The position numbers and the translations under genes are program-made. DNA of 64,000 nt from Tsukamurella sp. TY48 (lineage in GTDB: Bacteria; Actinomycetota; Actinomycetes; Mycobacteriales; Mycobacteriaceae). The notes below the pieces were generated by a model. It had not been told where the DNA came from, did no database searches, and saw only the letters and a list, made by a program, of their open reading frames with translations. Below are positions 40,842 through 60,788 of the stretch, one piece after another (the first letter of the stretch is position 1; every line of letters starts with the position of its first letter). The stretch lies in assembly GCF_019656655.1 (NCBI RefSeq), contig NZ_BPMV01000002.1:496001-560000 (forward strand). Reading direction: 5' to 3'.

Positions 40842-40880
40842 GGATCCGCGCCCTCGCTCAGCGGGCGAGGGTGCGGATCC
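40842..40880. terminator. 16-bp hairpin between convergent genes, reaching into the carboxylase 3' end
   Basis: GGATCCGCGCCCTCGC (40842-40857) pairs with GCGAGGGTGCGGATCC (40865-40880) over 16 positions with one G-T wobble and a seven-base loop. There is no T-tract, but the stem sits exactly between the DUF6069 stop and the carboxylase stop; its right arm codes for the last residues of the carboxylase. Confidence 0.65.
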
Positions 40881-45749: not shown

Positions 45750-45776
45750 GGCGGACTCCTGTTCGGTCGGGTCGAC

Positions 45777-46400
45777 CTACGTGAAGCCGACCAGTCGTTC
45801 GGTGATGCGGATCTGGTCCGCGATGAAGCGCTCGCGCTCGGCCGCGTTGCCGCGGGCCACGCGTTTGGCGCCGTGGTGGATGGTGTCGTTGAGGATCTGC
45901 ACCAGGGCCGCGGGTTCGATGCAGAGATCGACCGCGGCCGGGTCCAGCGAGGCCAGGTAATTGGTGTACCGCCGGTGCGTCCGCCGCATGAGGCGGTCCC
46001 AGAGCTCCGCGACATCCTCGCGGACCGCTGCCATCGCATCGAAGAGTGCCACGAGCCCGCCGTTGGCGAAGACGGCATCGGCGTAGGCGCGCATCGTGGC
46101 CGCGATCACCTCGCGGGGTTCCATGGTGTCCATGCCGTCCAGGAACTGGGTGGCCTCCAGTTCGGCGCCCACCCGGTCCAGGACCGCGAGCAGGATCTCG
46201 TCCTTGGACCGGAAGTAGGCGTAGAAGGTGGGCCGGGAGGTCTGGGCGCGTGCGGCGATGAGTTCGACGGTGGTGGCGGAGTAGCCCAGATCGTCGAAGC
46301 ACTCCGCCGCCGCCTGCAGCAGTTCCGCGCGGCGGGTTCCGCCGGCGTCCTTGCGCGAGGCCCGGGCCCGCTCCTGCGATTCGCTGATCGTCACGCTCAC
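45777..46400 (-). CDS. TetR-family transcriptional regulator
   Basis: 207 residues from GTG 46400. N-terminal helix-turn-helix RRAELLQAAAECFDDLGYSATTVELIAARAQTSRPTFYAYFRSKDEI is canonical TetR (split here: recognition helix SRPTFYAYF). The C-terminal ligand domain is about 140 residues. Placed 46 bases after the MFS gene and 27 bases before the ligase gene, so it is encoded inside the operon it presumably represses; acyl-CoA or the free acid is the likely ligand. Confidence 0.9.
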   Translation of the reverse strand: MSVTISESQERARASRKDAGGTRRAELLQAAAECFDDLGYSATTVELIAARAQTSRPTFYAYFRSKDEILLAVLDRVGAELEATQFLDGMDTMEPREVIAATMRAYADAVFANGGLVALFDAMAAVREDVAELWDRLMRRTHRRYTNYLASLDPAAVDLCIEPAALVQILNDTIHHGAKRVARGNAAERERFIADQIRITERLVGFT

Positions 46401-46446
46401 GAGTCTGCTCGGCTCCGGGCTCGGCTTCAAGGACGCCGGCGGTCGG

Positions 46447-47838
46447 TCATACCGTGGCCGGTACGCCGGGGACCGCGGTGGGGTCTTCGCGCACGGCGGC
46501 CGGATTGGTCTCCGGGAGGAACCAGGCGCTCAGGAGGGTGACCAGGCCCATCGCGGCGAGGTAGAGCGAGACTCCCCAGGTGGAGCCCGTCTCCGCGATG
46601 ATCCAGGTCATCAGGAGCGGCGCCACGCCGGAGACCGCGACGGCGGCGAGTTGGTACGCCAGCGAGGCGCCGGAGTACCGGACCCGGGGCTCGAAGAGCT
46701 CGGCCATGAACGCGGCGAGCGGTCCGTACGTGAGGGCCTGCCCGGCGCTGGAGATCAGCATGGCGATCACCAGCATGGTGCCGGACGCGGTATTGGCCAG
46801 TAGGAAGAACGGGAAGGCCCAGAGGATCAGCACGCCACCTCCCAGCAGGACCAGCGGCCGGCGCCCCACCCGATCGGAGTTGGCACCGGCCCACATGATC
46901 ACCAGGGGCATCACGATGGACGTGACCAGGATCGAGGTGAGTACGGTGTTGCGGTCCATGCCGAGGCCGCCTTCGGCCGGCTTCTGCGTTCCGTAGCTGA
47001 GGAATCCGGCGATGGAGACGTAGAACGCGGAGTTGGTGCCGGCGAGCAGGCCCGCGCCCAGCAGGATCTTGCGCCAGTGCTTGCGCACGGCCTCGGACAG
47101 CGGAGCGGCGGCCACCTGGGCCTGATCGCCCCGCTTGGCCTCGACCTCGGCCTTGAGCTGCCGGAACTCGGGCGAGTCCTCCACCTTGAGGTGGATGTAC
47201 AGGACCACAGGGATGAGGGCGGCGCTGGCCCAGAACGGGATTCGCCAGCCCCAGCTGAGGAAGGCGTCGTTGGGCATCGCGTAGCTGACCACGATCATCA
47301 TCAGGTTGCCCAGCACCAGACCGAGCGGCACGCCCATCTGCCCGAAGGTCCCGGCGAAGCCACGGCGTTTGGGGCCCGCGGATTCGGTGAGCAGCAGGAC
47401 GATTCCGCCCCACTGACCGCCGCAGGCGAGGCCCTGCACGAAGCGGAGCGTGATCAGCAGGACCGGGGCCACGGTGGCCATGCCCGCCACGTTCGCCGAG
47501 GGCAGGCAGCCGATCAGGAACGTGGCCACGCCCATCGCGATCAGGCACAGCAGCACCATGGGCTTGCGGCCCAGCTTGTCCCCGTAGTGGCCGGCGAGGA
47601 TGCCGCCGAGCGGGCGCGCGATGAAGCCGATCGAGAACGTACTGAACGCCGCGAGCGTCGCGACGAGGGGCGAGGCGTTCGGGAAGAAGACCTTCGGGAA
47701 GACGAGCGCCGCGGCGGTGCCGTAGACGAAGAAGTCGTACCACTCGATGGAACTGCCCACCAGGCCCGCGGTCAGCAGCTTGCGATGCGATCGGCGACGG
47801 TCGCGCTCGTCGAGCGCGGTCGATGACGTGTCTGACAT
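46447..47838 (-). CDS. MFS transporter, metabolite:H+ symporter (MHS) family
   Basis: 463 residues from ATG 47838 with GGGAG upstream. The start KLLTAGLVGSSIEWYDFFVY is the MHS (ProP/ShiA/KgtP) signature, followed by PLGGILAGHYGDKLGRKPM (motif A), RFVQGLACGGQWGG, and the C-half repeat SDRVGRRPLVLLGG. Twelve membrane segments. MHS carriers import small organic acids and zwitterions with protons. First gene of the unit MFS-TetR-ligase-carboxylase, suggesting import of the acid handled by the two enzymes. Confidence 0.9.
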   Translation of the reverse strand: MSDTSSTALDERDRRRSHRKLLTAGLVGSSIEWYDFFVYGTAAALVFPKVFFPNASPLVATLAAFSTFSIGFIARPLGGILAGHYGDKLGRKPMVLLCLIAMGVATFLIGCLPSANVAGMATVAPVLLITLRFVQGLACGGQWGGIVLLLTESAGPKRRGFAGTFGQMGVPLGLVLGNLMMIVVSYAMPNDAFLSWGWRIPFWASAALIPVVLYIHLKVEDSPEFRQLKAEVEAKRGDQAQVAAAPLSEAVRKHWRKILLGAGLLAGTNSAFYVSIAGFLSYGTQKPAEGGLGMDRNTVLTSILVTSIVMPLVIMWAGANSDRVGRRPLVLLGGGVLILWAFPFFLLANTASGTMLVIAMLISSAGQALTYGPLAAFMAELFEPRVRYSGASLAYQLAAVAVSGVAPLLMTWIIAETGSTWGVSLYLAAMGLVTLLSAWFLPETNPAAVREDPTAVPGVPATV

Positions 47839-47877
47839 GAGACTCCCGGATGTAAGAGAATGTGACCCCCGACACAT

Positions 47878-47906
47878 AGAATGATTGACGTTGACGTTCG
47901 TGTCAA
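47878..47906 (-). promoter_or_regulatory. candidate promoter of the MFS-TetR-ligase-carboxylase unit, overlapped by a TTGAC...GTCAA dyad
   Basis: On the minus strand TTGACA (47906-47901) is followed after 17 bases by CATTCT (47883-47878). The -35 lies inside the palindrome TTGAC-GTTCGT-GTCAA (47891-47906), a typical TetR-type operator layout. Confidence 0.5.
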
Positions 47907-47934
47907 CCGATTCCGCGAATTTGCTAAGCAAACG

Positions 47935-47948
47935 CTTACGCAGGTCAG
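47935..47948. promoter_or_regulatory. TetR-type operator TAAGC-N4-GCTTA, site 1
   Basis: TAAGC-AAAC-GCTTA in the 169-base interval between the divergent MFS and lipase genes. Its half-sites are identical to those of the operator at 60034 upstream of the lactonase operon. Confidence 0.6.
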
Positions 47949-48007
47949 AAGGTTTGCAAACGACCAAATCGCCCCCGCAACGGCGCACGCGCCGTTACCC
48001 TCGCCGC

Positions 48008-48817
48008 ATGACGACCGAACCCGATGCCGACTTCACACTGCCCGGGCACGGCGGCCCGATCGTCGGCCACCGCTGGTCACCGCCCGGCGATCCGCGGTAC
48101 GTGGTGCTGCTCACGCACGGCTACGGCGAGCACTCCCGCCGCTACGACCACCTCGCCTCGCGGCTCACGGCCGACGGTGCCGTGCTCTACGCCGTCGACC
48201 ACATCGGGCACGGTCGCTCCGCGGGAGAGCGTGTTCTCATCGAGGATTTCGACGCCGTGGTCGACGACGTGCACCTGGCGGAAGAACTGGCTCGCCGCGA
48301 ACATCCGTCGCTCCCAGTCACGCTGATCGGGCACTCCATGGGCGGCCTGATCGCGGCGAGGTACGCCCAGCGGTTCGGCAGCGGCCTGCGCGCGGTGGTC
48401 CTGTCGGGTCCGCTGATCGGCCCGGCCGCTCTCGTCTCGTCGATGCTGGCGCTCGACGAGATCCCCGATGTCCCGCTCGATCCCGAAGCCCTCTCCCGCG
48501 ACCCGGAGGTGGGCCGCGCGTACTCCGCGGACCCGCTGGTGTGGCACGGTCCGTTCAAGAAGCCCACGGTGGCGGCGATGGACCGCGCTCTGCGCGCGAT
48601 CTCCGCGGGTGGTCCTCTCCCCGTGCCCGCGCTGTGGCTGCATGGGACCGACGATCCGATCGTGCGGTACGAGGACTCGGCCGCGGGCTGGGCGGAGATC
48701 CGTCCCACGGACCACGCGGAGCGCACCTACCCCGGTGCGCGCCACGAGATCTTCAACGAACTCGACAAGGACCGCACGATCGACGACGCGATCGCCTTCC
48801 TCCACGAGCGGATCTGA
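48008..48817 (+). CDS. monoacylglycerol lipase-like alpha/beta hydrolase
   Basis: 269 residues from ATG 48008. Family pattern of monoacylglycerol lipases: LLTHGYGEHSRRYDHLA (HG oxyanion), DHIGHGRSAGER, nucleophile elbow LIGHSMGGLIAARYA, acid in LHGTDDPIVRYED, and His in PGARHEIFNE. The M. tuberculosis homologue Rv0183 hydrolyses monoacylglycerols. Divergent from the MFS unit and convergent with the lactonase. Substrate inferred by family only. Confidence 0.88.
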   Translation: MTTEPDADFTLPGHGGPIVGHRWSPPGDPRYVVLLTHGYGEHSRRYDHLASRLTADGAVLYAVDHIGHGRSAGERVLIEDFDAVVDDVHLAEELARREHPSLPVTLIGHSMGGLIAARYAQRFGSGLRAVVLSGPLIGPAALVSSMLALDEIPDVPLDPEALSRDPEVGRAYSADPLVWHGPFKKPTVAAMDRALRAISAGGPLPVPALWLHGTDDPIVRYEDSAAGWAEIRPTDHAERTYPGARHEIFNELDKDRTIDDAIAFLHERI

Positions 48818-48823
48818 GGCCGG

Positions 48824-49798
48824 CTACTCCCCCGCCAACACGCGCCGCGGGACGTCCACCAGCATGGTGTCGATCTGCTCCCGGGTGACGCCGCGCTCGA
48901 GGACGTACGGGAAGACATCGTCGAAGATGTGCGTGTAGTGCCACTGCGTGAGAGCGGCTTTGACGTTCGGATCGATCCAGTCGATGTAGCAGGAGGCGTC
49001 CTGCGAGAGCACGATCTTCTCGGCGTAGCCGCGGCGCACCATCTCGATCAGGGTGTCGTTGCGCGCCTCGAAGGTGGTCTCCAGATTGATGCCGAAGCGG
49101 TCGAAGCCGAGGGTGAAGCCGGCGTCGGCGAGTGCCGCGAGGTGGTCGACATCGGTCGAATCACCGCTGTGGCCCAGCACGATCCGCGCCGGATCCACGC
49201 CCTCCTCGTCGCACATCACCCGCTTGACCAGCAGTCCGGTCTCCGACCCGGGATGGGTGTGCACCGTGATCGGCACACCGGTCGTGCGGTGCGCCGCGGC
49301 GACGGCCCGCATCACGCGCTCGACGCCGTCGGTGAGGCCGTGGTGATCGATCGCGCATTTGAGCATGCCCGCCTTCACCCCGGTGCCGCCGATGCCCTCG
49401 GTGATGTCGCGGACGAACATGTCCACCATCGGATCCGGGAATTCGACGCCGGTCATCGCGGTGAGGGCCGGGCCTCGGTACAGGAAGTACCTCGGCACGT
49501 CGCGGTAGGTGTACACGCCGGTCGCCGCGACGATCCGCACCGGGGTGCGTTCCGCGATGGCCCGGATCCGGGGGATGTAGCGGCCGAGGCCCACCACTGT
49601 GGGATCGACGATGGTGCGCACCCCCGCGTCGTACGCCTTCTGGAGCTGGGCGACCGCATCGTCGATCCGCGCGTTCTCGTCGCCGAAGTCGTCGGGATAG
49701 TTCTGCTGGATGTCCGGGGTGAGCACGAAGACGTGCTCGTGCATCAGGGTGACGCCCAGGTCGGCGGCCGCAACCTCGCCGGTGACAGTGTGAACCAT
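48824..49798 (-). CDS. phosphotriesterase-family lactonase (PLL/QsdA-like)
   Basis: 324 residues from ATG 49798. Binuclear metal site of the PTE/PLL class: His20-x-His22 (LMHEHVF), carboxylated Lys147 (VKAGMLKCAID, aligned with the AGIIKVA of parathion hydrolase), His180 (TVHTHPG), His210 (VLGHSGDS) and Asp267 (LSQDASC). PLL enzymes hydrolyse gamma-/delta-lactones and acyl-homoserine lactones; QsdA of Rhodococcus erythropolis (similar length) is a quorum-quenching lactonase in a gamma-lactone catabolic operon. Last gene of the 12-gene operon. An amidohydrolase role (as in PTER) is a less likely alternative, because that group uses Glu for Lys. Confidence 0.87.
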   Translation of the reverse strand: MVHTVTGEVAAADLGVTLMHEHVFVLTPDIQQNYPDDFGDENARIDDAVAQLQKAYDAGVRTIVDPTVVGLGRYIPRIRAIAERTPVRIVAATGVYTYRDVPRYFLYRGPALTAMTGVEFPDPMVDMFVRDITEGIGGTGVKAGMLKCAIDHHGLTDGVERVMRAVAAAHRTTGVPITVHTHPGSETGLLVKRVMCDEEGVDPARIVLGHSGDSTDVDHLAALADAGFTLGFDRFGINLETTFEARNDTLIEMVRRGYAEKIVLSQDASCYIDWIDPNVKAALTQWHYTHIFDDVFPYVLERGVTREQIDTMLVDVPRRVLAGE

Positions 49799-49824
49799 GT
49801 GCTGCTCCTGACGGGGTGACGTGG

Positions 49825-50910
49825 TCAGGCCGGAAGGTCGACCAGGGTGGCGAGGGCGGCGCGATGCCGCCCGGGAATGCCGAGACCGATCTGATCGGCC
49901 TTGGCGCGCTTGAGGTACAGGTGTGCGGGGTGCTCCCAGGTCATCCCGATGCCGCCGTGCAGCTGCACCGACTCCTCGGCGGCCCGCACGGCGAGGTCCG
50001 AACAGTAGGCGGCGGCGACGGCGATCGCGATCGCGCTCTCCGGGTCCGCGGGGCCCAGTTCGCCGAGTGTGACGGTGGCCGACCGCGCCACCGCTGCTGC
50101 GGATTCCGCATCGGCGTACAGCTCGGCGAGCCGGTGCTTGATCGCCTGGAAGCCGCCCACGACGCGTCCGAACTGCTTGCGCTCCTTGAGATACCCGACC
50201 GTGGTCGCCACGCACCACCGCGCCGCGCCCGCCTGTTCGGCGGCGAGCAGCGCCGCACCGGTCAGCAGGCCCGCCCGCACGGCGGCGGTGCCATCGGCGG
50301 CGAGGACCGTGCCGGCGGCACCGTCGAAGGTCACGTCCGCGACCTGACGGGTCATGTCCAGCGAGGACACCGGATCCACGCGGGCCCGCGCGGCATCGAG
50401 GGCGTACAGCGCACCATCGTCGCCCAGGGCCAGCAGGACGTCGGCCCCGATCGCGCCCGCCACCGAGCGGACGGTGCCCGTGAGCGCCCCGCCGGCCGCC
50501 GGACCACCCGTGAGCGGGCCGTGCGGGTCGACGGAGAAGGGCACGACCAGAGCCGCGGTGGTCGCACCGGAGGCGAGCCGCTCGACCAGGTCGTCCGCGC
50601 CCGCGGCGAGCGCCACGGTGGTCGCGATCCCTGCGGAGGTGAGGAACGACGACGATGCCGCCGCAGCCCCCAGCTCTTCGGCCACCACGCCGGCGACGGC
50701 GACTCCGGCGTCGGCCCCGCCGAGCCGCTCCGGGACGAGCAGCCCGGCCACGCCCATCGCGGCGAGCTCGGCGTCGATCCCGGGCACGGGGGCACCGTCG
50801 TAGGCGGCGATCAGGTGCGACGGTGCGCTGCGCCGCTCGAGCAGATCGCGGACCGCCGAGCGCAGGTCCTCCTCGACATCGGTCAGCAGAAGATCGGGGG
50901 TGAAGCTCAT
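49825..50910 (-). CDS. acyl-CoA dehydrogenase family protein (partner subunit)
   Basis: 361 residues from ATG 50910, overlapping the previous stop (ATGA). The C-terminal domain is well conserved (KERKQFGRVVGGFQAIKHRLAEL; AEESVQLHGGIGMTWEHPAH), but the middle FAD-binding beta domain is divergent and the N-terminal half is Ala/Gly-rich. This resembles the non-catalytic or co-catalytic subunit of actinobacterial heteromeric alpha2beta2 acyl-CoA dehydrogenases (ChsE-type), whose two genes are adjacent, as here with the dehydrogenase at 50907-52094. Confidence 0.87.
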   Translation of the reverse strand: MSFTPDLLLTDVEEDLRSAVRDLLERRSAPSHLIAAYDGAPVPGIDAELAAMGVAGLLVPERLGGADAGVAVAGVVAEELGAAAASSSFLTSAGIATTVALAAGADDLVERLASGATTAALVVPFSVDPHGPLTGGPAAGGALTGTVRSVAGAIGADVLLALGDDGALYALDAARARVDPVSSLDMTRQVADVTFDGAAGTVLAADGTAAVRAGLLTGAALLAAEQAGAARWCVATTVGYLKERKQFGRVVGGFQAIKHRLAELYADAESAAAVARSATVTLGELGPADPESAIAIAVAAAYCSDLAVRAAEESVQLHGGIGMTWEHPAHLYLKRAKADQIGLGIPGRHRAALATLVDLPA

Positions 50911-52094
50911 TTGGGCACGTCCTTCCACGGCAGGTCCTTATCGACGCGGTGCTCCGGTGGTAGGCCCAGGACCCGCTCCGCCACGATGTTCTTGAGGATC
51001 TCGGAGGTACCGCCCTCGATCGAGTTGCCCTTGGCCCGCAGGTAGCGGTACCCGGCGTCGCGGCCGTAGAAGTCCACTCGGTCGGGCCGCACCATCGTCC
51101 AATCGCCGTAGCGCAGGCCGTCTTCGCCGAGCAGCTCCAACTCGAGCCCGGAGAGCTTCTGGTTGAGCCGCGCGAACGAGAGCTTCATCGCCGCGCCCTC
51201 GGGGCCCGGCTGGCCCGAGGCGAGCTTCTGGCCGAGCCGCAGCGCCGTGACGCGGGCGACCTCGCTGTCGACCCACAGGCGCAGCAGGTCGTCGTGCAGG
51301 TCCGGTGTGCGCAGATCGGAGCGCTCGCGCCAGGTGGTCGCGACCACACCGATCATGCCCTCCTCGCGCTGCGCGGCCCGGCCGCCGATCGCGACCCGCT
51401 CGTTGTTGAGCGTGGCGTTCGCCACCTGCCAGCCCTGGCCCACCTCCCCCAGGCGGTGTGCGTCGGGGATTCGCACGCCGGTGAGGAAGACCTCGTTGAA
51501 CTCGGCCTCGCCGGTGATCTGCCGTAGCGGGCGCACATCGATCCCCGGATCGGACATGTCGCACAGGAAGTAGGTGAGCCCCTTGTGCTTCGGCTGATCC
51601 GGATCGGTGCGGGCCACCAGGATCGCCCACTGCGCGTTGTGCGCGCCCGAGGTCCACACCTTCTGGCCCGTGACCACCCAGTCGTCACCGTCGCGCACCG
51701 CGCGCGTGGCGAGGCCCGCGAGGTCGGAGCCGGCGCCCGGCTCGCTGAACAGCTGGCACCAGATCTCCTCGCCGGTCCACAGCGGGCGCAGGAAGCGATC
51801 GATCTGCTGCGCCGTCCCGAAGGACAGGATCGTGGGCGCCGCCATACCGAGCCCGATGCCGTTCACGTGGCTGCGGTTGTCGGGTGCCCCGGCCGCGGCG
51901 AACTGCGCATCCACGGCCCGCTGCAGGGAGCGGGACAGGCCCAGACCGCCGCGTCCCTCCGGGTAGGCCACCCACGCCAGTCCGGCGTCGTACCGGGCGC
52001 GGAGGAATTCCAGCGGGTCCGTCGTGGCCGGCGGGTGCGCCGCGAGGAAGTCCTCGATCCGCTGTGCCAGGTCCTCCGCGCCCGGCGCGGTCAC
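50907..52094 (-). CDS. acyl-CoA dehydrogenase
   Basis: 395 residues from GTG 52094, overlapping the previous stop (GTGA). Complete ACAD architecture: helical N-domain, FAD-binding beta domain ([51 protein letters not shown]), C-terminal helices ([30 protein letters not shown]). Introduces the alpha,beta double bond in an acyl-CoA. Probably forms a heterotetramer with the product of the overlapping downstream gene. In actinobacteria such pairs often handle bulky or branched acyl-CoAs. Confidence 0.9.
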
Positions 52095-53314
52095 TTCGCC
52101 GCCGCCCGCTTCTTCAGCTCGGCGCGCGCGAGCGAGTTCTTGTGCACCTCGTCGGGCCCGTCGGCGAACCGGAGGGTGCGGATGCCGGCGTAGTACTCGG
52201 CCAGGGTGAAGTCCTGCGAGAGCCCACCGGCGCCGTGCGCCTGAATGGCCTTGTCCAGGATCCACTGCACGGTCTGCGGAGTCGCGATCTTGATCGCCTG
52301 GATCTCGGTGTGCGCGCCGCGGTTACCCACGGTGTCCATGAGCCACGCGGTTTTGAGAACCAGCAGTCGCAGCTGCTCGATCCGCACCCGCGATTCGGCG
52401 ATCCAGTCGCGGATCACACCCTGCTCGGAGAGCGGCTTGCCGAAGGCGGTGCGGCTGGAGACGCGATCGCACATGAGCTCCACGGCGCGCTCCGCCACAC
52501 CGATCGAGCGCATGCAGTGGTGGATGCGGCCGGGCCCGAGACGGGCCTGCGCGACGGCGAAACCGCCGCCCTCCTCGCCGATCAGGTTGCTCACCGGCAC
52601 CCGCACGTCGGTGAAGCGCATCTCGGCGTGGCCACCGTGGTTGTTGTCCTCGTAGCCGAATACCTGCATGCCGCGGAGCACTTCGAGGCCCGGGGTGTCG
52701 CGCGGCACCAGGATCTGCGACTGCTGCCGGTGCCGCTCGGCATCGGGGGCGGTCTTGCCCATCACGATGAAGATCTTGCAGTTCGGGTTCATGGCGCCCG
52801 TGATCCACCACTTACGGCCGTTGATCACGTACTCGTCGCCGTCGCGCACGATCGACAAGCCGATGTTGGTGGCGTCCGAGCTGGCCACATCGGGTTCGGT
52901 CATCGCGAAAGCGGAACGGATGGAGCCGTCGAGCAGCGGGGTGAGCCACTGCTGCTTCTGCTCCGCGGTGCCGAACTCGTTGAGGACCTCCATGTTGCCG
53001 GTATCGGGCGCGGCACAGTTGAAGACGGCGGGCGCCAGATGCAGCGCGCGCCCGGAGATCTCGGCGATCGGCGCGTACTGGAGATTGGTCAGGCCGGCGC
53101 CGCCCTCGCCGGGCAGGAAGAAGTTCCAGAACCCGCGGCTGCGGGCCTCGGCGCGCAGCTCCTGCAGAATCGGGACGCTGTCCCAGGCCCACCGGTTGTC
53201 GAGCTCACCGAGCTGGCGGTGGAAGGTCTCCTCCGCCGGGTACACGTGGCTCTCCATGAAGGAGGTGACCTCGGCGATCAGCTCCTGTGTCTTGGCGTCG
53301 TAGCCGAATTCCAT
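52091..53314 (-). CDS. ACAD10/11-like acyl-CoA dehydrogenase
   Basis: 407 residues. ACAD fold with [20 protein letters not shown], the segment [25 protein letters not shown] (residues about 150-175, split here as [15 protein letters not shown]) typical of ACAD10/ACAD11 and LvaC, and [20 protein letters not shown] at the C-terminus. In mammals and in the Pseudomonas levulinate (lva) pathway, such enzymes act on 4-phospho-acyl-CoAs made by an APH-type kinase, removing the 4-oxygen so that beta-oxidation can go on. The APH-kinase gene lies one base upstream here. Strong functional hint, not proof. Confidence 0.88.
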
Positions 53315-53315
53315 G

Positions 53316-54332
53316 TCAGTTCTCCTCGAGTGCTTGCAGGCCCGCGTCGAGCAGCGGGTTCACGGCGTCGCCGGCCTCGGCGAAGCCCGCGCCCACGGTC
53401 TGCCCGTTCACGTAGCGGTAGTGGATGCCCTCGACGATGCCGGCCAGTTTGAAGGCGGCGAGTGCGAGGTAGAAACCGAAATCGCCCAGATCGCGGTCGC
53501 TCCGGGCCGCGTACCGGTCGATGATCTCCTGTTCGGTGAGGAAGCCCGGGGCTTCCGTGACATCGGCGACGGTCTCGCGGGAGACCTTCGCCAGGCGTCC
53601 GTAGACCACCATGAGCGCGAGGTCGGTCAGTGAGTCGCCGATGGTGGCGAGCTCCCAGTCGACGACGGCGGCGGGGCGGTCCTGCGGGTCGACCAGGACG
53701 TTGTCGAGACGGTAATCGCCGTGCACGATGCCGGGTTTCGCATCGGCCGGTACCCGCGCCTTGAGCGCCCGGTAGAGCTGGTCCACTTTCGGCAGGTCCC
53801 GGGTGTGGGCGGCGGCGAACTGCTTGTTCCAGCGCTCCACCTGACGGCCCAGGAAGCCCTCGGGCCGCCCGTAGTCGGACAGGCCCACGGTCGCGGGGTC
53901 GACGCTGTGCAGCACCACGAGGGTGTCGATCAGGCGCTCCGAGATCGCCCGGGTGCGCTCGGGTCCCAGCGCCTCGAGCTCGGACGCGCGGCGGTAGGGC
54001 ACGCCGTCGATCTCGCTCATGATGTAGAACGGCGCGCCGAGCACATCGGGGTCGTCGCAGAAGGCGTACATCACCGGGAGCGGCACGCCGGTGCCCGCGA
54101 GGGCGGACATCATCGTGTACTCGCGGCCCATGTCGTGCGCGGTGGCGAGGAGCTTGCCCACCGGCGGGCGGCGCAGGATCCAGTTCGATGTCCCGTCCGA
54201 GATGCGGTACGTGAGATTGGATTTGCCGCCCGCGATGAGTTCCGCGGTGAGATCCGATCCGGCGCCGTCGACGTGCTGCGGCAGCCAGGTGCCGAGGACG
54301 TCGAGATCGAGTCCGGGGTGCTGCTCCGCCAT
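53316..54332 (-). CDS. APH-type phosphotransferase (ACAD10/11 kinase-domain-like)
   Basis: 338 residues. Aminoglycoside-phosphotransferase fold: [10 protein letters not shown] phosphate-binding loop (35-44), [15 protein letters not shown] with catalytic Asp206 and Asn211, [19 protein letters not shown] with metal-binding Asp225. The version [11 protein letters not shown] / [10 protein letters not shown]-like is that of ACAD10/11 kinase domains and LvaA, which phosphorylate the 4-hydroxyl of 4-hydroxyacyl-CoAs, not antibiotics. One base from the ACAD10/11-like gene and one-base overlap with maoC. Confidence 0.9.
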
Positions 54333-54784
54333 CAGAAGACCACCACCGATACGGTCTCGGCCACGCAGGCGGGCTTATCGCCGCCCTCGCGTTCCACGGT
54401 GACGCGGGTGACCACCTGGTAGCCACCGCCGCCCTCGGCAACGGAGACCAGTTCGACTCCGGCGCGCAACCGCGATCCGACCGGCACCGGCTGCGGGAAG
54501 CGCACCTTGTTGCTGCCGTAGTTCACGCCCATCTTCGCGCCGCGTACCTCGTACACCTGCCACACCAGCATCGGGATGAGCGAGAGGGTGAGGTAGCCGT
54601 GCGCGATGGTCGATCCGAACGGGCCGGCGGCCGCGCGTTCGGGGTCGACGTGGATCCACTGGTGATCGCCGGTCGCCTCGGCGAACAGGTCGATCCGCTG
54701 TTGGTCGACGGTGACCCAGTCGGAGTAGCCGAGGTGGCGTCCGACAGCGGCCTGCAGTTCGTCCGGTCCGTTCAGGATCTCCAT
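54332..54784 (-). CDS. MaoC-family enoyl-CoA hydratase
   Basis: 150 residues with the hot-dog fold and the R-hydratase motif FAEATGDHQWIHVDPERA (catalytic Asp and His), then GPFGSTIAHGYLTLSLIP. Hydrates a trans-2-enoyl-CoA to the (R)- or (S)-3-hydroxyacyl-CoA. It stands between the SDR at 54808 and the kinase gene. Role in the pathway: the hydration step of beta-oxidation, or hydration of the enoyl-CoA left after removal of the 4-phosphate. Confidence 0.92.
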   Translation of the reverse strand: MEILNGPDELQAAVGRHLGYSDWVTVDQQRIDLFAEATGDHQWIHVDPERAAAGPFGSTIAHGYLTLSLIPMLVWQVYEVRGAKMGVNYGSNKVRFPQPVPVGSRLRAGVELVSVAEGGGGYQVVTRVTVEREGGDKPACVAETVSVVVF

Positions 54785-54807
54785 GTCTTCGCTCCTCAGT
54801 CCCGCGC

Positions 54808-55563
54808 CTAGTCCTTGGGCCCGCCGGCCACGTAGATCACCTGACCGGAGACGAATCCGGCTCCCTCGCTGGCGAAGAAGCTGGCGGTGTGCGCGATGTC
54901 GGCGGGCTCACCGACCCGCTGCACGGGGATCTCCTTGGCCGCGGCGGTCTTGAAGTCCTCGAAGGCGACGCCGATCCGCTCCGCGGTGGCGGCCGTCATG
55001 TCCGTGGCGATGAAGCCGGGGGCGATCGCGTTCGCGGTGACGCCGAACTTGCCCAGTTCGAAGGCGAGGGTCTTGGTGAAGCCCTGCATGCCCGCCTTGG
55101 CGGCGGAGTAGTTCGCCTGGCCGCGGTTGCCGAGCGCGGAGGTGGACGAGAGGTTGATGATGCGGCCCCAGCCCTCCTTGGTCTGGTACTTCTGCACCTC
55201 GCGCGACATGAGGAAGGCGCCGCGCAGGTGCACCGCCATCACCTGGTCCCAGTCCGAGACGGACATCTTGAACAGCAGGTTGTCGCGCAGGATGCCGGCG
55301 TTGTTCACCAGGATCGTCGGGGCGCCGAGTTCCTCGGCCACGCGGGTCACCGCGGCGGCGACCTTCTCCTCGTCGGCCACATCGACGCCGACGCCGAGCG
55401 CCTGTCCACCGGCGGCGGTGATCTCCGCGGCGACCGTCGCGCAGGCCGCTTCGTCGAGGTCGAGGACGGCCACCTTGTGGCCGTCGGAGGCGAGCCGGCG
55501 GGCGACCTCGGCGCCGATGCCGCGGGCGGCACCGGTCACAATGGCAACACGTTGGGTGGTCAT
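54808..55563 (-). CDS. SDR-family 3-oxoacyl/3-hydroxyacyl dehydrogenase (FabG-like)
   Basis: 251 residues from ATG 55563 (ATGA overlap with the HAD gene). Classical SDR: TGAARGIGAEVARRL (NAD(P) binding), DLDEAA after beta2, NNAG, catalytic Ser in NLSSTSALGNRGQANYSAAKAG (Ser-Tyr-Lys), and the C-terminal SGQVIYVAGG typical of FabG. Asp after strand 2 (LDLDE) points to NAD(H). Likely oxidises the 3-hydroxyacyl-CoA. Confidence 0.9.
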   Translation of the reverse strand: MTTQRVAIVTGAARGIGAEVARRLASDGHKVAVLDLDEAACATVAAEITAAGGQALGVGVDVADEEKVAAAVTRVAEELGAPTILVNNAGILRDNLLFKMSVSDWDQVMAVHLRGAFLMSREVQKYQTKEGWGRIINLSSTSALGNRGQANYSAAKAGMQGFTKTLAFELGKFGVTANAIAPGFIATDMTAATAERIGVAFEDFKTAAAKEIPVQRVGEPADIAHTASFFASEGAGFVSGQVIYVAGGPKD

Positions 55564-56234
55564 GCGTTCTCCTTCTCGGATGTGGGTTCGGTTGCGAGAC
55601 CCGGGATCAGGGCGGCCAGGGCCTCGCGGGTGGTGCGGGCGTCGGTGTGGTGCACGGCGTGCAGCCCGAGGGCGGCCGCGCCGTCGACGTTGGGGACGGC
55701 GTCGTCGAGGAAGGCCGCGCGGCCGGGCGGCACGCCCAGCCGGCCGAGCGCGAGTTCGAAGATGGCGGGGTCCGGCTTCCGCAGGCCCACCTCCTCCGAG
55801 ATGATCACCGCGCCGAACAGCTCCGCGAGCCGATCGCGGTCGTACAGGTTCCCGCTGCCCCAGCTGTTGGAGACCACACCCACCGCGACTCCCGCCGCAC
55901 GAAGATCCTCGGCCAGACGCCACATCGCGGGATCGGCGGCGACGCGGGCGAACATGCGGCGGAGCACGCCGTCGGGGTTGACGGGCCCTCCGTCGCGGGT
56001 GCGCAGCGCCGCGGCGAAGAGCGCATCGAACTCCTCCTCGGGCAGGTCCCCGGTCTCCAGCCGGTGGATCGGGCTCCCCTCGGCGGCATCGCGGCCGAGC
56101 CAGGCCTTGAGGGTGGCGGTGAACACGGCGGGATCGATGTCCTCGTCGGCGATCCAGGCGCGGATGCTCTCACCCATCGGCGTGGTGAGCACCCCGCCGT
56201 AGTCGAAGAGCACCGCGTCCACCGCGCGGCTCAC
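55560..56234 (-). CDS. HAD-superfamily hydrolase
   Basis: 224 residues. HAD motifs: FDYGGVLTTP (motif I; nucleophile Asp in AVLFDYGGV), VVSNSWGSG (motif II), EVGLRKPDPAIFELA (motif III Lys) and AAFLDDAVPNVDGA (motif IV). The FDYGGVLTT...KPDPAIF pattern is that of the HAD domain at the N-terminus of ACAD10. With the APH kinase and ACAD11-like gene in the same operon, all three ACAD10 domains are present as separate proteins. It could remove misplaced phosphate or act as a metabolite-repair phosphatase. Confidence 0.88.
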   Translation of the reverse strand: MSRAVDAVLFDYGGVLTTPMGESIRAWIADEDIDPAVFTATLKAWLGRDAAEGSPIHRLETGDLPEEEFDALFAAALRTRDGGPVNPDGVLRRMFARVAADPAMWRLAEDLRAAGVAVGVVSNSWGSGNLYDRDRLAELFGAVIISEEVGLRKPDPAIFELALGRLGVPPGRAAFLDDAVPNVDGAAALGLHAVHHTDARTTREALAALIPGLATEPTSEKENA

Positions 56235-57220
56235 CGGTCGGCCTGGTAGACGACGCGGCCCACGGTGCTGCCGTCGGCGAGGCGCTGCAGGCCGTCCGGC
56301 ACCTCGTCGAAGGACAGTCGCTCACTGACCAGCGGGGCCACCTTGCCGGCATCGGCGAGCGCCGTCAGGTCGGCGTGGCAGGCGCGCACGGCGGCGGGGT
56401 CGAACCGGTTGTACAGGCCCCAGTGCAGTCCCACGATGGAGTAGTTCTTGATGAGCGCGTGGTTGAGCGCCACCTCCTGGATGGTGCCGCCGGCGAAGCC
56501 GACCACCAGGATGCGCCCTTCGAAGGCGATGCACTTGGTGGACCGCTTGTAGGTCTCACCGCCCACCGGGTCGTACACGACATCGGCGCCGCGACCGCCG
56601 GTCTGCGCCTTGACCACCTCGACGAAGTCCTCGGTGTGCCGGTCGATCACCACATCGGCGCCGAGCGCGCGGGCCACCTCGGCCTTCGCGGGTCCGCCGA
56701 CCACGCCGATCACCGTGGCGCCGGCGGCTTTGCCGAGTTGGATCGCGGCGCTGCCCACCCCGCCCGCGGCGGCGTGCACGAGCAGGGTCTCCCCCGCCTT
56801 CAGCTGAGCCCGGCGGTGCAGGCCGAACCACCCGGTCTGGTAGCCGATGAACAGGGAGGAGGCCTGGGCGTCGTCGAGCGAGGACGGTGCCGGGAAGGTC
56901 TCGGCGGCGTTCATCACGGCGTATTCGGCGAAGCCCCCGTGCGGCAGCGCGACGCCGCCCAGCACCCGGTCGCCCACGGCGAAGCCGTCGACTCCCTCAC
57001 CGACGGTGACGATCTCGCCGCACAGTTCCACGCCCGGGGTGAAGGGCAGATCGGGTTTGATCTGATAGAGCCCGCGACACATGAGCACGTCCGGGAAGTT
57101 CGCCGCCGTGGCCAGCGTGCGCACGGTGACCTGTCCGGGCCCCGGGGTGGGGACCTCGAGATCCACCGCACGCAGTACCGCCGCGGGTTCGCCCAGTTCC
57201 GGTACCTGCCAGGCCCTCAT
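56231..57220 (-). CDS. NADPH:quinone oxidoreductase / zinc-independent MDR reductase
   Basis: 329 residues from ATG 57220. Medium-chain reductase fold with GxGxxG-type LLVHAAAGGVGSAAIQLGKA, substrate-domain LPFTPGVELCGEIVTVGEGV, and no structural or catalytic zinc ligands, so it is of the quinone-oxidoreductase/enoyl-reductase group. Could reduce a 2-enoyl-CoA or an unsaturated carbonyl. Stop overlaps the HAD start by four bases; the start overlaps the previous SDR stop by one. Confidence 0.88.
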   Translation of the reverse strand: MRAWQVPELGEPAAVLRAVDLEVPTPGPGQVTVRTLATAANFPDVLMCRGLYQIKPDLPFTPGVELCGEIVTVGEGVDGFAVGDRVLGGVALPHGGFAEYAVMNAAETFPAPSSLDDAQASSLFIGYQTGWFGLHRRAQLKAGETLLVHAAAGGVGSAAIQLGKAAGATVIGVVGGPAKAEVARALGADVVIDRHTEDFVEVVKAQTGGRGADVVYDPVGGETYKRSTKCIAFEGRILVVGFAGGTIQEVALNHALIKNYSIVGLHWGLYNRFDPAAVRACHADLTALADAGKVAPLVSERLSFDEVPDGLQRLADGSTVGRVVYQADR

Positions 57221-58023
57221 CACCGGCCCTCCTTCTGTTCCAGCCGCTGCTGGATCTTGTTCATCCCGGCGAGCCACCGATCGGGGGCGGCCGCGCGGGC
57301 CTGGTAGTAGTCGCGCACCTCGGGGTGCGGCAGGATCAGCAGTTCGTCGCCCGCGAGGGCCGCCACCGTCTGCTCGGCGACCTGCTCCGCGGTGAGCGCG
57401 GTGTCGCGGGAGAGCAGGTCCTTGAGCGGGCCGGAATCGTCGAGCATCCGGGTCTGCACGCCCTGCGGGCAGATGGCCTGGACCACCACGCCCCGGTGCC
57501 GATACGTGGCCGAGAGCCATTCGGCGAAGGCCACGGCCCCGTGTTTGGTGACGGAGTAGGCGGGAGCGTCGAGCATCGTGAGCAGACCGGCGGCCGATGC
57601 GGTGACCACGAATCGGCCCCGGCCCGCCGCCGCCCAGTCGGGGACCAGCAGGCGTGCCGCGCGCACGTGCGCCATGACGTTCACCTGCCAGGACAGGTCC
57701 CAATCCGCCTCGGACGCTTCGATTCCCCTGCCGCGATCGACGCCGGCGTTGGCGAACCAGGCGTCGATCGCGCCGAGCCGCTCGCGCGCCGTCGCGACCA
57801 GCGCCGCGACGCCGGCCTCGGAGGCGGCATCACCGGGCGCCGGGTAGGCGGTGCCGCCGGCCGCGGTGATCGCGTCGACGGTGCGGGTCACACCCTCGGC
57901 GTCCAGGTCGGCCACCACCACGCGGGCACCGTCCGCGGCGAGCGCGCTCGCGAGTGCCGCGCCGATACCCGCGCCCGAACCGGTCACCACCACCCCGGCG
58001 TTGCGGGGGTCGAAGCCGGTCAT
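57220..58023 (-). CDS. SDR-family oxidoreductase
   Basis: 267 residues. VVVTGSGAGIGAALASALA cofactor motif, DLDAEG after strand 2 (NAD-type Asp), NAGVDRG, TASAAGLLTMLDAPAYSVTKHG catalytic Ser-Tyr-Lys. The C-terminus is extended (LPHPEVRDYYQARAA...), unlike FabG, a form seen in actinobacterial SDRs of steroid and fatty-acid clusters. Substrate unknown. Confidence 0.88.
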   Translation of the reverse strand: MTGFDPRNAGVVVTGSGAGIGAALASALAADGARVVVADLDAEGVTRTVDAITAAGGTAYPAPGDAASEAGVAALVATARERLGAIDAWFANAGVDRGRGIEASEADWDLSWQVNVMAHVRAARLLVPDWAAAGRGRFVVTASAAGLLTMLDAPAYSVTKHGAVAFAEWLSATYRHRGVVVQAICPQGVQTRMLDDSGPLKDLLSRDTALTAEQVAEQTVAALAGDELLILPHPEVRDYYQARAAAPDRWLAGMNKIQQRLEQKEGR

Positions 58024-58027
58024 GGGA

Positions 58028-58783
58028 TCAGACTCCTCCGGTGAGCAGGACGCCGCCGTCGATGGTGAGGGTCTGGCCCGTCATCCACGCGGCGTCGTCG
58101 GACAGCAGGAAGGCCACGACCGACCCGATGTCCTCGGGCACCCCCAACCGCTTGAGCGGATAGGCCGATGCGACCTCCTCCTCACGCCCCTCGTACAGTG
58201 CGGTCGCGAAGCGGGTCTTCACCACTGCGGGGGCGACTGCGTTGACCCGGATGTCCGGGCCCAGCTCGACCGCCAGCTCCTCAGTGAGGTGGATGACCGC
58301 CGCCTTGGAGACGCCGTAGAACGCGATGCCCGGCGCGGGCCGCAGACCCGCCACGGAGGCCACGTTGACGATCGCGCCACCGTGCTCCCGCTGCCACGCC
58401 GCGTTGACCTTCTGCACCCAGGACAACGTGGACATCACGTTGACCTCCATGATCTTGCGGGCCGCCGCCACATCGAGATCCATCAGCGGGCCGTACACCG
58501 GGTTGATGCCGGTGTTGTTGACGAAGAAGTCGGCGCTGCCGAAGGTCCCGATCGCTGTCGCGATCACCTCGTCCTGGTGCGCGAGATCGTCGCCCGAGCC
58601 GGCGACGGCGATCGCGACATCCGGACCACCGAGTTCGGTGACCGCGGCGTCGAGCGCCTCCTGCTTGCGCGCGGTGATCACGACCTTCGCGCCATCGGCC
58701 ACGAGCCGCTGCGCGATGGCGAGTCCGATGCCCCGGCTGGCGCCGGTGACGATGGCCGTCCTGCCGTCGAAACGCCCCGCCAT
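58028..58783 (-). CDS. SDR-family oxidoreductase
   Basis: 251 residues from ATG 58783. AIVTGASRGIGLAIAQRL, TARKQEALD after strand 2 (Arg/Lys instead of Asp, so NADP(H) is possible), NNTGINP, catalytic VASVAGLRPAPGIAFYGVSKAA. C-terminal MTGQTLTIDGGVL. Third SDR of the operon; the different cofactor preference suggests it acts in another redox step than the 54808 enzyme. One-base overlap with the thiolase stop. Confidence 0.88.
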   Translation of the reverse strand: MAGRFDGRTAIVTGASRGIGLAIAQRLVADGAKVVITARKQEALDAAVTELGGPDVAIAVAGSGDDLAHQDEVIATAIGTFGSADFFVNNTGINPVYGPLMDLDVAAARKIMEVNVMSTLSWVQKVNAAWQREHGGAIVNVASVAGLRPAPGIAFYGVSKAAVIHLTEELAVELGPDIRVNAVAPAVVKTRFATALYEGREEEVASAYPLKRLGVPEDIGSVVAFLLSDDAAWMTGQTLTIDGGVLLTGGV

Positions 58784-60000
58784 CAGCTGAGCCGCTCGAT
58801 GATCATGGCCATGCCCTGGCCGCCGCCGACACACATCGTCTCGAGGCCAAACTGCTTGTCGTGCCAGGCGAGCGAGTTGATCAGCGTGCTGGTGATGCGC
58901 GCGCCGGTCATTCCGAACGGGTGGCCGATGGCGATCGCGCCGCCGTTGACGTTGACCTTGTCGGCGTCGATCCCGAGATCGCGCACCGAGGGGATCACCT
59001 GGGCCGCGAAGGCCTCGTTGACCTCCATGAGGTCGATGTCGCCAATGGACATGCCGGCGCGGGCGAGCGCCTGCTTGGAGGCCTCGACCGGGCCGAGTCC
59101 CATGATCTCGGGCGAGAGGCCCGTGACACCGGTGGACACGATCCGGGCGAGCGGGGTGAGGCCGAGGGCCTTCGCCTTGGTGTCGGACATGATCACCACG
59201 GCCGCGGCACCGTCGTTGAGCGGGCAGCAGTTGCCGGCGGTCACGGTTCCGTCGGGCCGGAAGACCGGCTTGAGCTGGCTGACGGCCTCGTAGGTGACGC
59301 CGGCACGCGGACCGTCGTCCTTGCTGACGACGGTGCCGTCGGCGAGCGTGACCGGAGTGATGTCCTTGTCCCAGAAGCCCGCGGCGAGGGCGATCTCCGC
59401 GCGGTTCTGGCTACGGACACCCCACTCGTCCTGATCGTGGCGGCTGACGTTCTTGAACTGCGCCACGTTCTCGGCGGTCTGGCCCATCGCGATGTACAGG
59501 TCGGGCAGCAGGCCCGAGTCCCGCGGATCGGCCCAGGTCTGGCCGCCCTCGGCGAACTTCGCGGTGCGCGCCTCGGCGTCGGCGAAGATCGGATTCTTGG
59601 TGTCCGGAAGGCCGTCGGCGTTGCCCTTGACGTAGCGGCTCACGGTTTCGACGCCACCGGAGAGGAAGACCTCGCCCTCCCCGGCCTTGATGGCGTGGAA
59701 GGCCATGCGGGTGGTCTGGAGGCTGGAGCTGCAGTAGCGGTTCACCGTGACGCCGGGCGCGTGGTCGAGTCCCGCCTCGACCGCGACGGCGCGAGCGATG
59801 TTGAAGCCCGACTCACCGGCGGGCTGGCCGCAGCCGAAGAGCACGTCCTCGATCTCGCGCGGGTCGAGCTCGGGCACCTTGGCCAGCGCCGCGCGCACCA
59901 TCTGCACCGAGAGATCATCCGGGCGGACGTCTTTGAGCGACCCCTTCCCGGCACGGCCGATCGGAGACCGCGCGGTGGCGACGATGACGGCTTCGGGCAT
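58783..60000 (-). CDS. acetyl-CoA C-acyltransferase (thiolase)
   Basis: 405 residues with AGGAGG ribosome-binding site. Nucleophilic Cys in VNRYCSSSLQTT, His in AIGHPFGMTGAR, second Cys in CVGGGQGMAM. Degradative thiolase: cleaves 3-ketoacyl-CoA to acetyl-CoA (or propionyl-CoA) and a shortened acyl-CoA. First gene of the 12-gene operon; the next eleven genes follow with overlaps or gaps of at most 26 bases. Confidence 0.94.
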   Translation of the reverse strand: MPEAVIVATARSPIGRAGKGSLKDVRPDDLSVQMVRAALAKVPELDPREIEDVLFGCGQPAGESGFNIARAVAVEAGLDHAPGVTVNRYCSSSLQTTRMAFHAIKAGEGEVFLSGGVETVSRYVKGNADGLPDTKNPIFADAEARTAKFAEGGQTWADPRDSGLLPDLYIAMGQTAENVAQFKNVSRHDQDEWGVRSQNRAEIALAAGFWDKDITPVTLADGTVVSKDDGPRAGVTYEAVSQLKPVFRPDGTVTAGNCCPLNDGAAAVVIMSDTKAKALGLTPLARIVSTGVTGLSPEIMGLGPVEASKQALARAGMSIGDIDLMEVNEAFAAQVIPSVRDLGIDADKVNVNGGAIAIGHPFGMTGARITSTLINSLAWHDKQFGLETMCVGGGQGMAMIIERLS

Positions 60001-60033
60001 TGCATCCTCCTGGGTAATGACTACGATGCTGAC

Positions 60034-60047
60034 TAAGCGCTCGCTTA
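60034..60047. promoter_or_regulatory. TetR-type operator TAAGC-N4-GCTTA, site 2
   Basis: TAAGC-GCTC-GCTTA, with C and G extending the dyad by one base each side (60033-60048). It lies just downstream of a candidate minus-strand promoter TTGACG (60094-60089) - 17 bases - CACAGT (60071-60066), so a bound repressor would block the thiolase operon. The divergent tetR starts 126 bases away. Confidence 0.7.
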
Positions 60048-60173
60048 GCGAACGAGGTAGTCTCCACTGTGCACCACTGAGAGCCGATCGTCAATCGACC
60101 GGCGAATGTGGCATAGCTCACCCTATGCAGCCACCGGTACGTACGGTGGACGAAGCCGAAAAGGACCGCACCC

Positions 60174-60788
60174 ATGACCGACGCCGACGCACCGTCCCGC
60201 GCCGATGCGACGCGCGCCCGGCTGCTCTCCGCCGCAGCCGAGGCCTTCGCCGAACGCGGATTCCACGGCACCACCACGCGCGACATCGCCGCCGCCGCGG
60301 GCATGAGCCCCGCCGCGGTGTACGTGCACTACAAGTCGAAAGAGCAACTGCTGTACCAGCTCTCCTACCACGGGCACCAGCTGATCATCGACCTGATCGA
60401 TTCGGTCGACGACCGTTCCGCCGCACCGGCCGACCGCCTGCACGCGGTGCTGTACGCCTTCGCCAGCCACCACGCCGCGCAACACACCAGCGCGCGGGTG
60501 GTGAACTACGAGCTCGAGGCGCTCACCGAGGACCACCGCGCCGAGGTCGGCGAACAACGCCGGGAGATCACCCGCCGGCTGCGCGCCATCGTGGACGCCG
60601 GTGTGCAGGACGGCTCCTTCGACACCGACGAACCCCGATTGGCCACCACCGCCGTGCTGTCCAGCGGCATCGACGTGGCCCGGTGGTATCACGACGGCGG
60701 CGATATCACCCCCGAACAGATCGGTGCCTACTACGCCGATCTCGCGCTCCGTACCGTGGGCGCGACGCGATCACCGTCAAGCACGTAA
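60174..60788 (+). CDS. TetR-family transcriptional regulator of the lactonase operon (inferred)
   Basis: 204 residues. Helix-turn-helix RARLLSAAAEAFAERGFHG / TTRDIAAAAGMSPAAVYVHY, TetR type; the C-terminal domain is about 140 residues. Divergent from the 12-gene operon with the TAAGC palindrome between, so it probably represses that operon and itself and is released by an acyl-CoA intermediate. Compare QsdR in the Rhodococcus gamma-lactone system. The acyl-CoA dehydrogenase gene follows 39 bases downstream on the same strand. Confidence 0.9.
   Translation: MTDADAPSRADATRARLLSAAAEAFAERGFHGTTTRDIAAAAGMSPAAVYVHYKSKEQLLYQLSYHGHQLIIDLIDSVDDRSAAPADRLHAVLYAFASHHAAQHTSARVVNYELEALTEDHRAEVGEQRREITRRLRAIVDAGVQDGSFDTDEPRLATTAVLSSGIDVARWYHDGGDITPEQIGAYYADLALRTVGATRSPSST

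Follow-up and report, generated by a model that had tools for sequence, protein, structure and literature searches.

Enzymes that open lactone rings and enzymes that remove a 4-hydroxyl group are both known, and the combination of a lactonase with a kinase–ACAD11 pair described here is new. In mammals, 4-hydroxy fatty acids are handled via phosphorylation of the hydroxyl by ACAD10 and ACAD11, which join an APH kinase to an acyl-coenzyme A (CoA) dehydrogenase (ACAD) with an HCMR motif, an upstream Arg and a catalytic Asp (PMC12440821, PMC11342911), and ACAD10 also carries a HAD domain without the second Asp of the DxD motif (PMC11342911). In the lva operon of Pseudomonas putida, the kinase (LvaA) and the ACAD (LvaC) are separate genes. 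QsdA, QsdC and QsdR have been described for Rhodococcus erythropolis (PMC6262395, PMC6476934), where the opened lactone is degraded by a β- or ω-oxidation step, with 4-hydroxyl removal left unstated in the available part of PMC3689677. Here, we analyzed a 64,000-nucleotide stretch of Tsukamurella sp. TY48 (contig NZ_BPMV01000002.1, positions 496,001 to 560,000; hereafter the window), in which a twelve-gene minus-strand operon (48824–60000) is probably catabolic for γ-lactones and 4-hydroxy acids.

The locus shares features with each of these systems. Its kinase and ACAD resemble the mammalian domains and, as in the lva operon, are separate genes; with the HAD gene they make three unfused genes, known here from sequence, which stand in one operon with a lactonase and β-oxidation genes, and the route that they would serve in Tsukamurella is predicted. 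Compared with the lva operon, the Tsukamurella operon adds a HAD gene, a lactonase, a heteromeric ACAD pair and a thiolase, and in the window it lacks a CoA ligase. As in the R. erythropolis qsd operon (PMC6262395, PMC6476934, PMC3689677), a CoA ligase lies directly downstream of the lactonase, here of the PTE family (in 9/10 Tsukamurella genomes), and a TetR gene at the start of the operon points the other way. Unlike the qsd operon, it also encodes a predicted 4-hydroxyl-removing pair, its TetR gene diverges from the thiolase and not from the lactonase, and in the window no ligase stands in the place of QsdC. Among the open-licence papers listed in our searches, we found none that connects a lactonase to ACAD11 or LvaA. 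The operon offers a concrete and testable answer to how the 4-hydroxyl is removed in bacterial γ-lactone catabolism.

Gene content and the kinase–dehydrogenase pair

The operon stretch lies inside a 4.37 Mb genome assembled in two contigs. Gene content, order, families, motifs and conservation are direct observations. Twelve minus-strand open reading frames (ORFs) make up the operon, the first beginning with the thiolase ATG at 60000 and the last ending with the stop of the phosphotriesterase-family gene at 48824, with junctions that range from 4-base overlaps to a 26-base gap and GTG starts in genes 5 and 10. According to Pfam, they comprise a thiolase, three SDRs, an MDR, a HAD protein, a MaoC protein, an APH kinase, three ACADs and a PTE protein. 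Coordinates and families agree with the first-pass annotation of the window, which had proposed twelve minus-strand genes with gaps of at most 26 bases; the HAD gene had been counted there but left unnamed and outside the scheme. The genes, in the order of transcription, are:

58783–60000, minus: gene 1, thiolase (acetyl-CoA C-acyltransferase); Pfam; NCBIfam NF005890, 779 bits (cut-off 580)
58028–58783, minus: SDR oxidoreductase sdr2; Pfam adh_short_C2
57220–58023, minus: SDR oxidoreductase sdr3; Pfam adh_short
56231–57220, minus: MDR quinone/enoyl reductase, PIG3-like; TIGR02824, 242 bits (below the cut-off of 297); PDB 4eye, 218 bits
55560–56234, minus: gene 5, HAD-IA protein with FDYGG; Pfam Hydrolase
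54808–55563, minus: FabG-like SDR, sdr6; TIGR01830, 256 bits (below the cut-off of 298)
54332–54784, minus: MaoC-like hydratase/dehydratase; Pfam PF01575, 103 bits
53316–54332, minus: APH-family kinase of the ACAD10/11–LvaA type, with HGDYRLDN; matches to PDB 8v3v, 9o56 and 3dxp
52091–53314, minus: ACAD11/LvaC-type ACAD; PDB 8v3u, 469 bits
50907–52094, minus: ACAD, subunit of a probable heteromeric pair; PDB 6wy9, 140 bits, and 4x28_A, 122 bits
49825–50910, minus: ACAD partner subunit; Pfam, without a middle-domain match; PDB 6wy8_A, 75 bits; IpdE2 model, 145 bits (below the cut-off of 450)
48824–49798, minus: predicted PTE-family lactonase, PLL-A like; PF02126, 281 bits; PDB 4if2 (PPH), 358 bits, and SsoPox, 240 bits

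That the kinase and the ACAD11-type dehydrogenase are a split ACAD11, predicted to work like ACAD11, is well grounded, because of their scores against ACAD11 and their conserved motifs. Among solved structures, the kinase matched the APH-type entries 9o56 (223 bits) and 3dxp (219 bits) and the ACAD11 kinase domain 8v3v (189 bits). The score of the dehydrogenase against ACAD11 (8v3u) compares with 146 bits for the best match outside the four ACAD11-like ones, and the gene is the sole close match in a genome with at least 11 other ACADs. Alignment to 8v3u revealed the HCMR motif, the upstream Arg and the catalytic Asp, all tied to 4-phosphoacyl-CoA chemistry (PMC12440821). The Asp was checked in the alignment of the window dehydrogenase, and the count across the fetched loci covered the HCMR-type motif, which occurs in 81 of the 85 ORFs that best match the ACAD11-type gene; three of the four others are distant (31–36% identity) and the fourth, L113, is 71% identical. 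The catalytic Asp (HGD) of the kinase is likewise present in the alignment to 8v3v, and 63/69 kinase ORFs have an HGD-type motif. Bacterial kinase and ACAD orthologues replacing the ACAD10 domains have been described (PMC11342911). An APH/ACAD pair of the ACAD11/Lva type, as had been proposed from the letters of the window, is thus borne out in silico.

The pair is widespread; a search of 397 genomes of the order found an ACAD11-type gene in 353 (E ≤ 1e-120). Sixty ACAD11 loci, a subset of the places listed by that search, were compared. The kinase lies on the ACAD11 strand in 56 of them and directly adjoins ACAD11 in 53. Other operon genes on the same strand were the FabG-like SDR (36 loci), MaoC (35), the two further ACADs (24 and 25), HAD (22), sdr2 (22), sdr3 (19) and MDR (14), and a thiolase of at least 70% identity occurs in five loci. 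Tsukamurella retains the operon in full and other members of the order retain large portions, so the gene order is not due to chance. The lactonase is rare across these loci in comparison with the kinase and the other genes, which suggests that an older kinase–ACAD11 cluster acquired it later.

The lactonase and its linkage to ACAD11 and a CoA ligase

The last gene of the operon encodes the only PF02126 member of the genome. The first-pass annotation had assigned it to the PLL type with a full metal site, and both points held: the protein has His20, His22, Lys147, His180, His210 and Asp267, none of which varies among the seven aligned sequences (window included), and PPH is the nearest solved protein, followed among the best 60 matches by SsoPox and its variants (227–240 bits), 4rdy (218 bits) and others at 157 bits or less. 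SsoPox Tyr97, Arg223 and Trp263 align with Tyr96, Arg234 and Trp274 of the lactonase, and we take the Tyr97 and Arg223 positions to have functional roles. These similarities support a PLL-A-like hydrolase with a predicted lactonase function. PPH and SsoPox have been placed in PLL-A, and PPH, which has acyl-homoserine lactone (AHL) lactonase and oxo-lactonase activity, is counted among the natural lactonases (PMC3781021).

Among the best 80 of the 578 loci found in a wider search, the nearest named relatives of the lactonase, at 80–92% identity, come from seven Tsukamurella genomes, which places the strain in that genus, and there are four Rhodococcus matches (63–73% identity), none of them named QsdA, which is presumably a PTE-family enzyme. 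In R. globerulus, a relative (L218) stands next to a GntR gene, and no ligase matched within 400 bases of it. Close relatives in other genera are mostly found outside this type of operon; six same-family relatives (L053, L055, L059, L060, L064 and L067; 52–56% identity) have a ligase within 400 bases and, unlike the window, no ACAD11 gene in the stretch.

A separate lactonase search gave 75 places in 59 of 150 genomes, window included; of the remaining 74, we took 40 further, which were not strictly the top-ranked ones. Across 111 distinct lactonase-anchored sequences, a motif-checked ACAD11 gene was present within 10 kb in 20, and in 13 of the 104 outside the seven Tsukamurella genomes, compared with 0.3–0.6 of 111 expected from uniform placement at an assumed 1–2 copies per 5.5 Mb, an expectation that assumes random placement and ignores shared ancestry. 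These counts support a link between lactonase and ACAD11 in other lineages as well as Tsukamurella. In Nocardioides phosphati, sdr2, sdr3, MDR, HAD, kinase, ACAD11 and lactonase form one run, with 29 bases between ACAD11 and lactonase, and in five metagenome bins (L192, L215, L222, L223 and L226), ACAD11 follows the lactonase by 102–171 bases. Metagenome bins account for six or more of the 20 linked sequences (these five and L225 among them), and no kinase was found among the scanned flanking genes of L226. As a separate observation, the L223 lactonase, from a bin labelled Acidobacteriota, is very close to that of L226, from an Actinomycetes bin, which may reflect a binning error.

In a 128-row tree, the ACAD11-linkage label changes 12 times, while shuffled labels average 19; the label is clustered by descent, and the 20 linked sequences are therefore not independent. 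Eight label changes were counted against the ligase group, with at least three forced by well-supported branches. This tree includes ACAD11-anchored rows, which inflate linkage, whereas the count of 20 in 111 comes from lactonase-anchored rows only. We also considered whether linkage is a by-product of PTE genes lying among fatty-acid genes of any kind. This was set aside, as 103 distinct non-Tsukamurella lactonase loci held 14 ACAD11-type ORFs in 14 loci and 20 ORFs of other ACADs in 14 loci, against a genome ratio of one ACAD11 to at least 11 others; the control is rough, since its 75-bit threshold may miss distant ACADs, and it admits L204 (37% identity), which is absent from the count of 20 in 111.

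A CoA ligase accompanies the lactonase in most of the genus. In 7/7 named Tsukamurella genomes, the lactonase is last in the operon and a ligase follows 6–10 bases later, as judged from alignment ends, and the same order occurs in genome G238 (L082) and in a T. tyrosinosolvens record (NZ_LR134470.1). Together with the window, and with the duplicated genomes L083/L155 and L084/L154 counted once each, this makes ten genomes, all with the lactonase in the operon and nine with the ligase directly after it, the window being the exception. The absence of a CoA ligase from the operon, noted in the first-pass annotation, is thus correct for the window and does not extend to the genus. Outside the genus, ligase–lactonase pairs occur in Planosporangium, Amycolatopsis (two loci) and Planotetraspora, with the ligase first, 66–68% identical and 8–12 bases away; an AMP-ligase match lies within 400 bases of the lactonase in 37 of the 111 distinct sequences. 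In the window, three genes downstream of the lactonase are relevant here:

47885–48817, plus: alpha/beta hydrolase (widest ORF), convergent with the lactonase; PF12146, 195 bits
46447–47988, minus: MFS transporter; 93% identical to that of L082 and kept downstream in L082 and T. tyrosinosolvens
44025–45749, minus: acyl-CoA synthetase, a possible supplier of the CoA thioester; NF004822, 796 bits (cut-off 782)

The opposite-strand hydrolase stands between the lactonase and the transporter, at the place of the ligase (47975–48822). Because the T. tyrosinosolvens record carries both the ligase and the hydrolase, the ligase was most likely lost in the window strain, whose own best match to the Tsukamurella ligase is 53% identical (17 matches). 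Two minor points concern the records themselves: that of T. tyrosinosolvens (L231), named "plasmid 28", bears the whole locus with its neighbors and may be a misnamed chromosomal contig, and the G238 thiolase (L082:4835–6038) aligns as two pieces in different frames, possibly through a frameshift or a sequencing error.

The HAD gene and the divergent regulator

Gene 5 encodes a HAD-IA protein in which the nucleophile Asp is kept and Gly replaces the second Asp of DxD: its FDYGG aligns with FDLDG of a solved entry named β-phosphoglucomutase, placing DYG opposite DxD. The D-x-GG motif was found in 32/32 HAD ORFs, a number that counts the window and some duplicate genomes, and likewise throughout a smaller set of 24 ORFs. 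The loss of the second Asp is by itself no proof of lost catalysis. In ACAD10, too, the HAD domain keeps just the first Asp of DxD; its phosphatase activity is negligible, and it holds the kinase back (PMC11342911). This domain has no homology to any lva operon protein, and its function was left unevaluated in the 2025 paper, according to the available part of that source (PMC12440821).

HAD, kinase and ACAD are consecutive, in the domain order of ACAD10, in 15/60 ACAD11 loci, while 38/60 have no same-strand HAD match and in Tsukamurella two genes separate HAD from the kinase. The match of the HAD protein to TIGR02247 is below the cut-off (90 vs. 125 bits). We regard gene 5 as a candidate free-standing equivalent of the HAD domain in ACAD10; among the open-licence papers listed in our searches, we found none naming a bacterial stand-alone partner of that domain. 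Tentatively, and with the balance leaning somewhat against it, we propose that actinobacteria hold an unfused ACAD10 (HAD, kinase and ACAD), whose free-standing HAD protein would be the counterpart of the regulatory HAD domain of the animal enzyme, and that in Tsukamurella this module has been joined to a lactonase–ligase pair, giving a complete pathway that would supply the unexplained step of γ-lactone catabolism, namely phosphorylation and loss of the 4-hydroxyl. The operon provides a simple bacterial setting for asking what the ACAD10 HAD domain does.

Three features lie upstream of the thiolase gene:

60033–60048, no strand: perfect 16-base palindrome CTAAGCGCTCGCTTAG, candidate TetR operator, between the TetR and thiolase genes
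60174–60788, plus: divergent TetR regulator; Pfam TetR_N and TetR_C_24; PDB 3him, 139 bits, and KstR2, 77.5 bits
60828–61985, plus: ACAD, 3' of the TetR gene; Pfam; adjoins the TetR gene also in same-genus loci

The entry 3him is the nearest solved protein to the regulator and KstR2 the nearest named one, and QsdR is absent from the best 60 of 185 solved matches. The parallel to the qsd TetR regulator drawn in the first-pass annotation is not supported. The palindrome sits inside a longer imperfect inverted repeat and is kept in 3/3 same-genus loci compared, and two of the 57 remaining ACAD11 loci (L101 and L118) also contain copies. Allowing up to one mismatch, it has a single site in the genome, and a control pattern read backwards has three sites per strand; since the control has more sites, the number alone is no evidence. 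Its place and conservation fit a candidate local repressor site. A sigma-70 promoter scan of the divergent region found none. Separately, a second copy of the palindrome occurs in one Tsukamurella genome (L084:13716), in the widened gap between the thiolase gene and the next SDR gene, which suggests a second regulated promoter.

Proposed pathway and rival readings

We infer every reaction, substrate and regulatory step of the operon as follows. The PLL enzyme would open the lactone ring to give a 4-hydroxy acid, and a CoA ligase, encoded by the neighboring gene in most Tsukamurella and elsewhere in the window strain, would convert it to a 4-hydroxyacyl-CoA. The APH kinase would then phosphorylate the 4-hydroxyl, and the ACAD11-type enzyme would oxidize the product, eliminate phosphate and re-reduce it to a 2-enoyl-CoA, with MaoC, the FabG-like SDR, the heteromeric dehydrogenase pair and the thiolase completing β-oxidation. 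Conversion of 4-oxo or enone forms may fall to the other SDRs and the MDR, the HAD protein may, like the HAD domain of ACAD10, hold the kinase in check, and the TetR repressor may act at the single palindrome. If this holds, the hydroxyl-stripped chain could be burned as ordinary fat. Of the first-pass proposal, the core, an operon joining a lactonase to 4-hydroxyl removal, has in silico support from families, motifs and linkage; its analogy to a QsdR-type regulator does not.

Several observations weigh against a γ-lactone pathway, in addition to the disregard of shared ancestry in the expected linkage. A same-strand lactonase is present in 3/60 ACAD11 loci, all of them Tsukamurella, with an opposite-strand one in three more, and no ACAD11 gene lies within 10 kb of 91/111 lactonases. 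Among the 13 linked non-Tsukamurella loci, four, from genomes of the order, have the lactonase on the opposite strand (L041, L061, L062 and L065) and only four have a kinase match (L061, L062, L065 and L162); in two of the kinase-less loci, L158 and L169, the ACAD11 gene falls at the very end of the locus. Further, the window has no ligase after its lactonase, the regulator and the heteromeric dehydrogenases resemble proteins that we take to act in steroid pathways, and a search for activity data on these proteins found none. As most clusters lack a lactonase and most lactonases lack ACAD11, the lactonase is optional and the cluster must also serve 4-hydroxy acids from other sources.

The same distribution bears on an unlikely, though still credible, alternative: a pathway for 4-hydroxy or 4-oxo acids such as levulinate or oxidized fatty acids, with the lactonase as a minor helper on spontaneously formed lactones or in an unrelated role. 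The lactonase-less cluster is the common state, 4-hydroxy acids lactonize spontaneously, and three SDRs and an MDR would suit 4-oxo and enone reduction. What favors a γ-lactone pathway instead is the lactonase–ACAD11 linkage in several lineages, together with the lactonase–ligase pair inside the same Tsukamurella operon.

A steroid C/D-ring or terpenoid side-chain cluster is improbable. It would have the heteromeric ACAD pair, the thiolase and a KstR2-like TetR as in the catabolism of methylhexahydroindanedione propionate (HIP), and its PTE enzyme would open a lactone derived from a steroid. Among solved structures, the ACAD pair comes closest to Tcur3483/Tcur3481, and 4x28 is one of those that follow, all presumably steroid enzymes; KstR2 is the closest named solved regulator, and IpdE2 is the top-scoring NCBIfam model of the partner subunit. 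However, that score falls far below the cut-off for the IpdE2-type family, and a better IpdE2 match (290 bits, also below the cut-off) lies on the other contig beside another IpdE2-like match, which weakens a steroid role for the operon and led us to set a HIP cluster aside. No steroid cluster is known to us to contain an ACAD11–kinase pair, although no search aimed at one was made.

A quorum-quenching operon with an AHL as natural substrate is very improbable, and feeding on quorum signals was set aside as a main role because its support comes down to the breadth of the lactonase family: PLL-A enzymes such as PPH cleave AHLs and other lactones (PMC3781021) and the qsd operon degrades AHLs, but an opened AHL is an N-acyl-homoserine, with no obvious way of becoming a 4-hydroxyacyl-CoA precursor, Pfam finds no amidase family in the twelve genes, and QsdR is not among the closest solved matches given above for the regulator.

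Downstream of the operon, the block at 40858–47988 holds the MFS transporter, a second TetR gene, the acyl-CoA synthetase and a biotin-dependent carboxylase, and is partly kept in other Tsukamurella.

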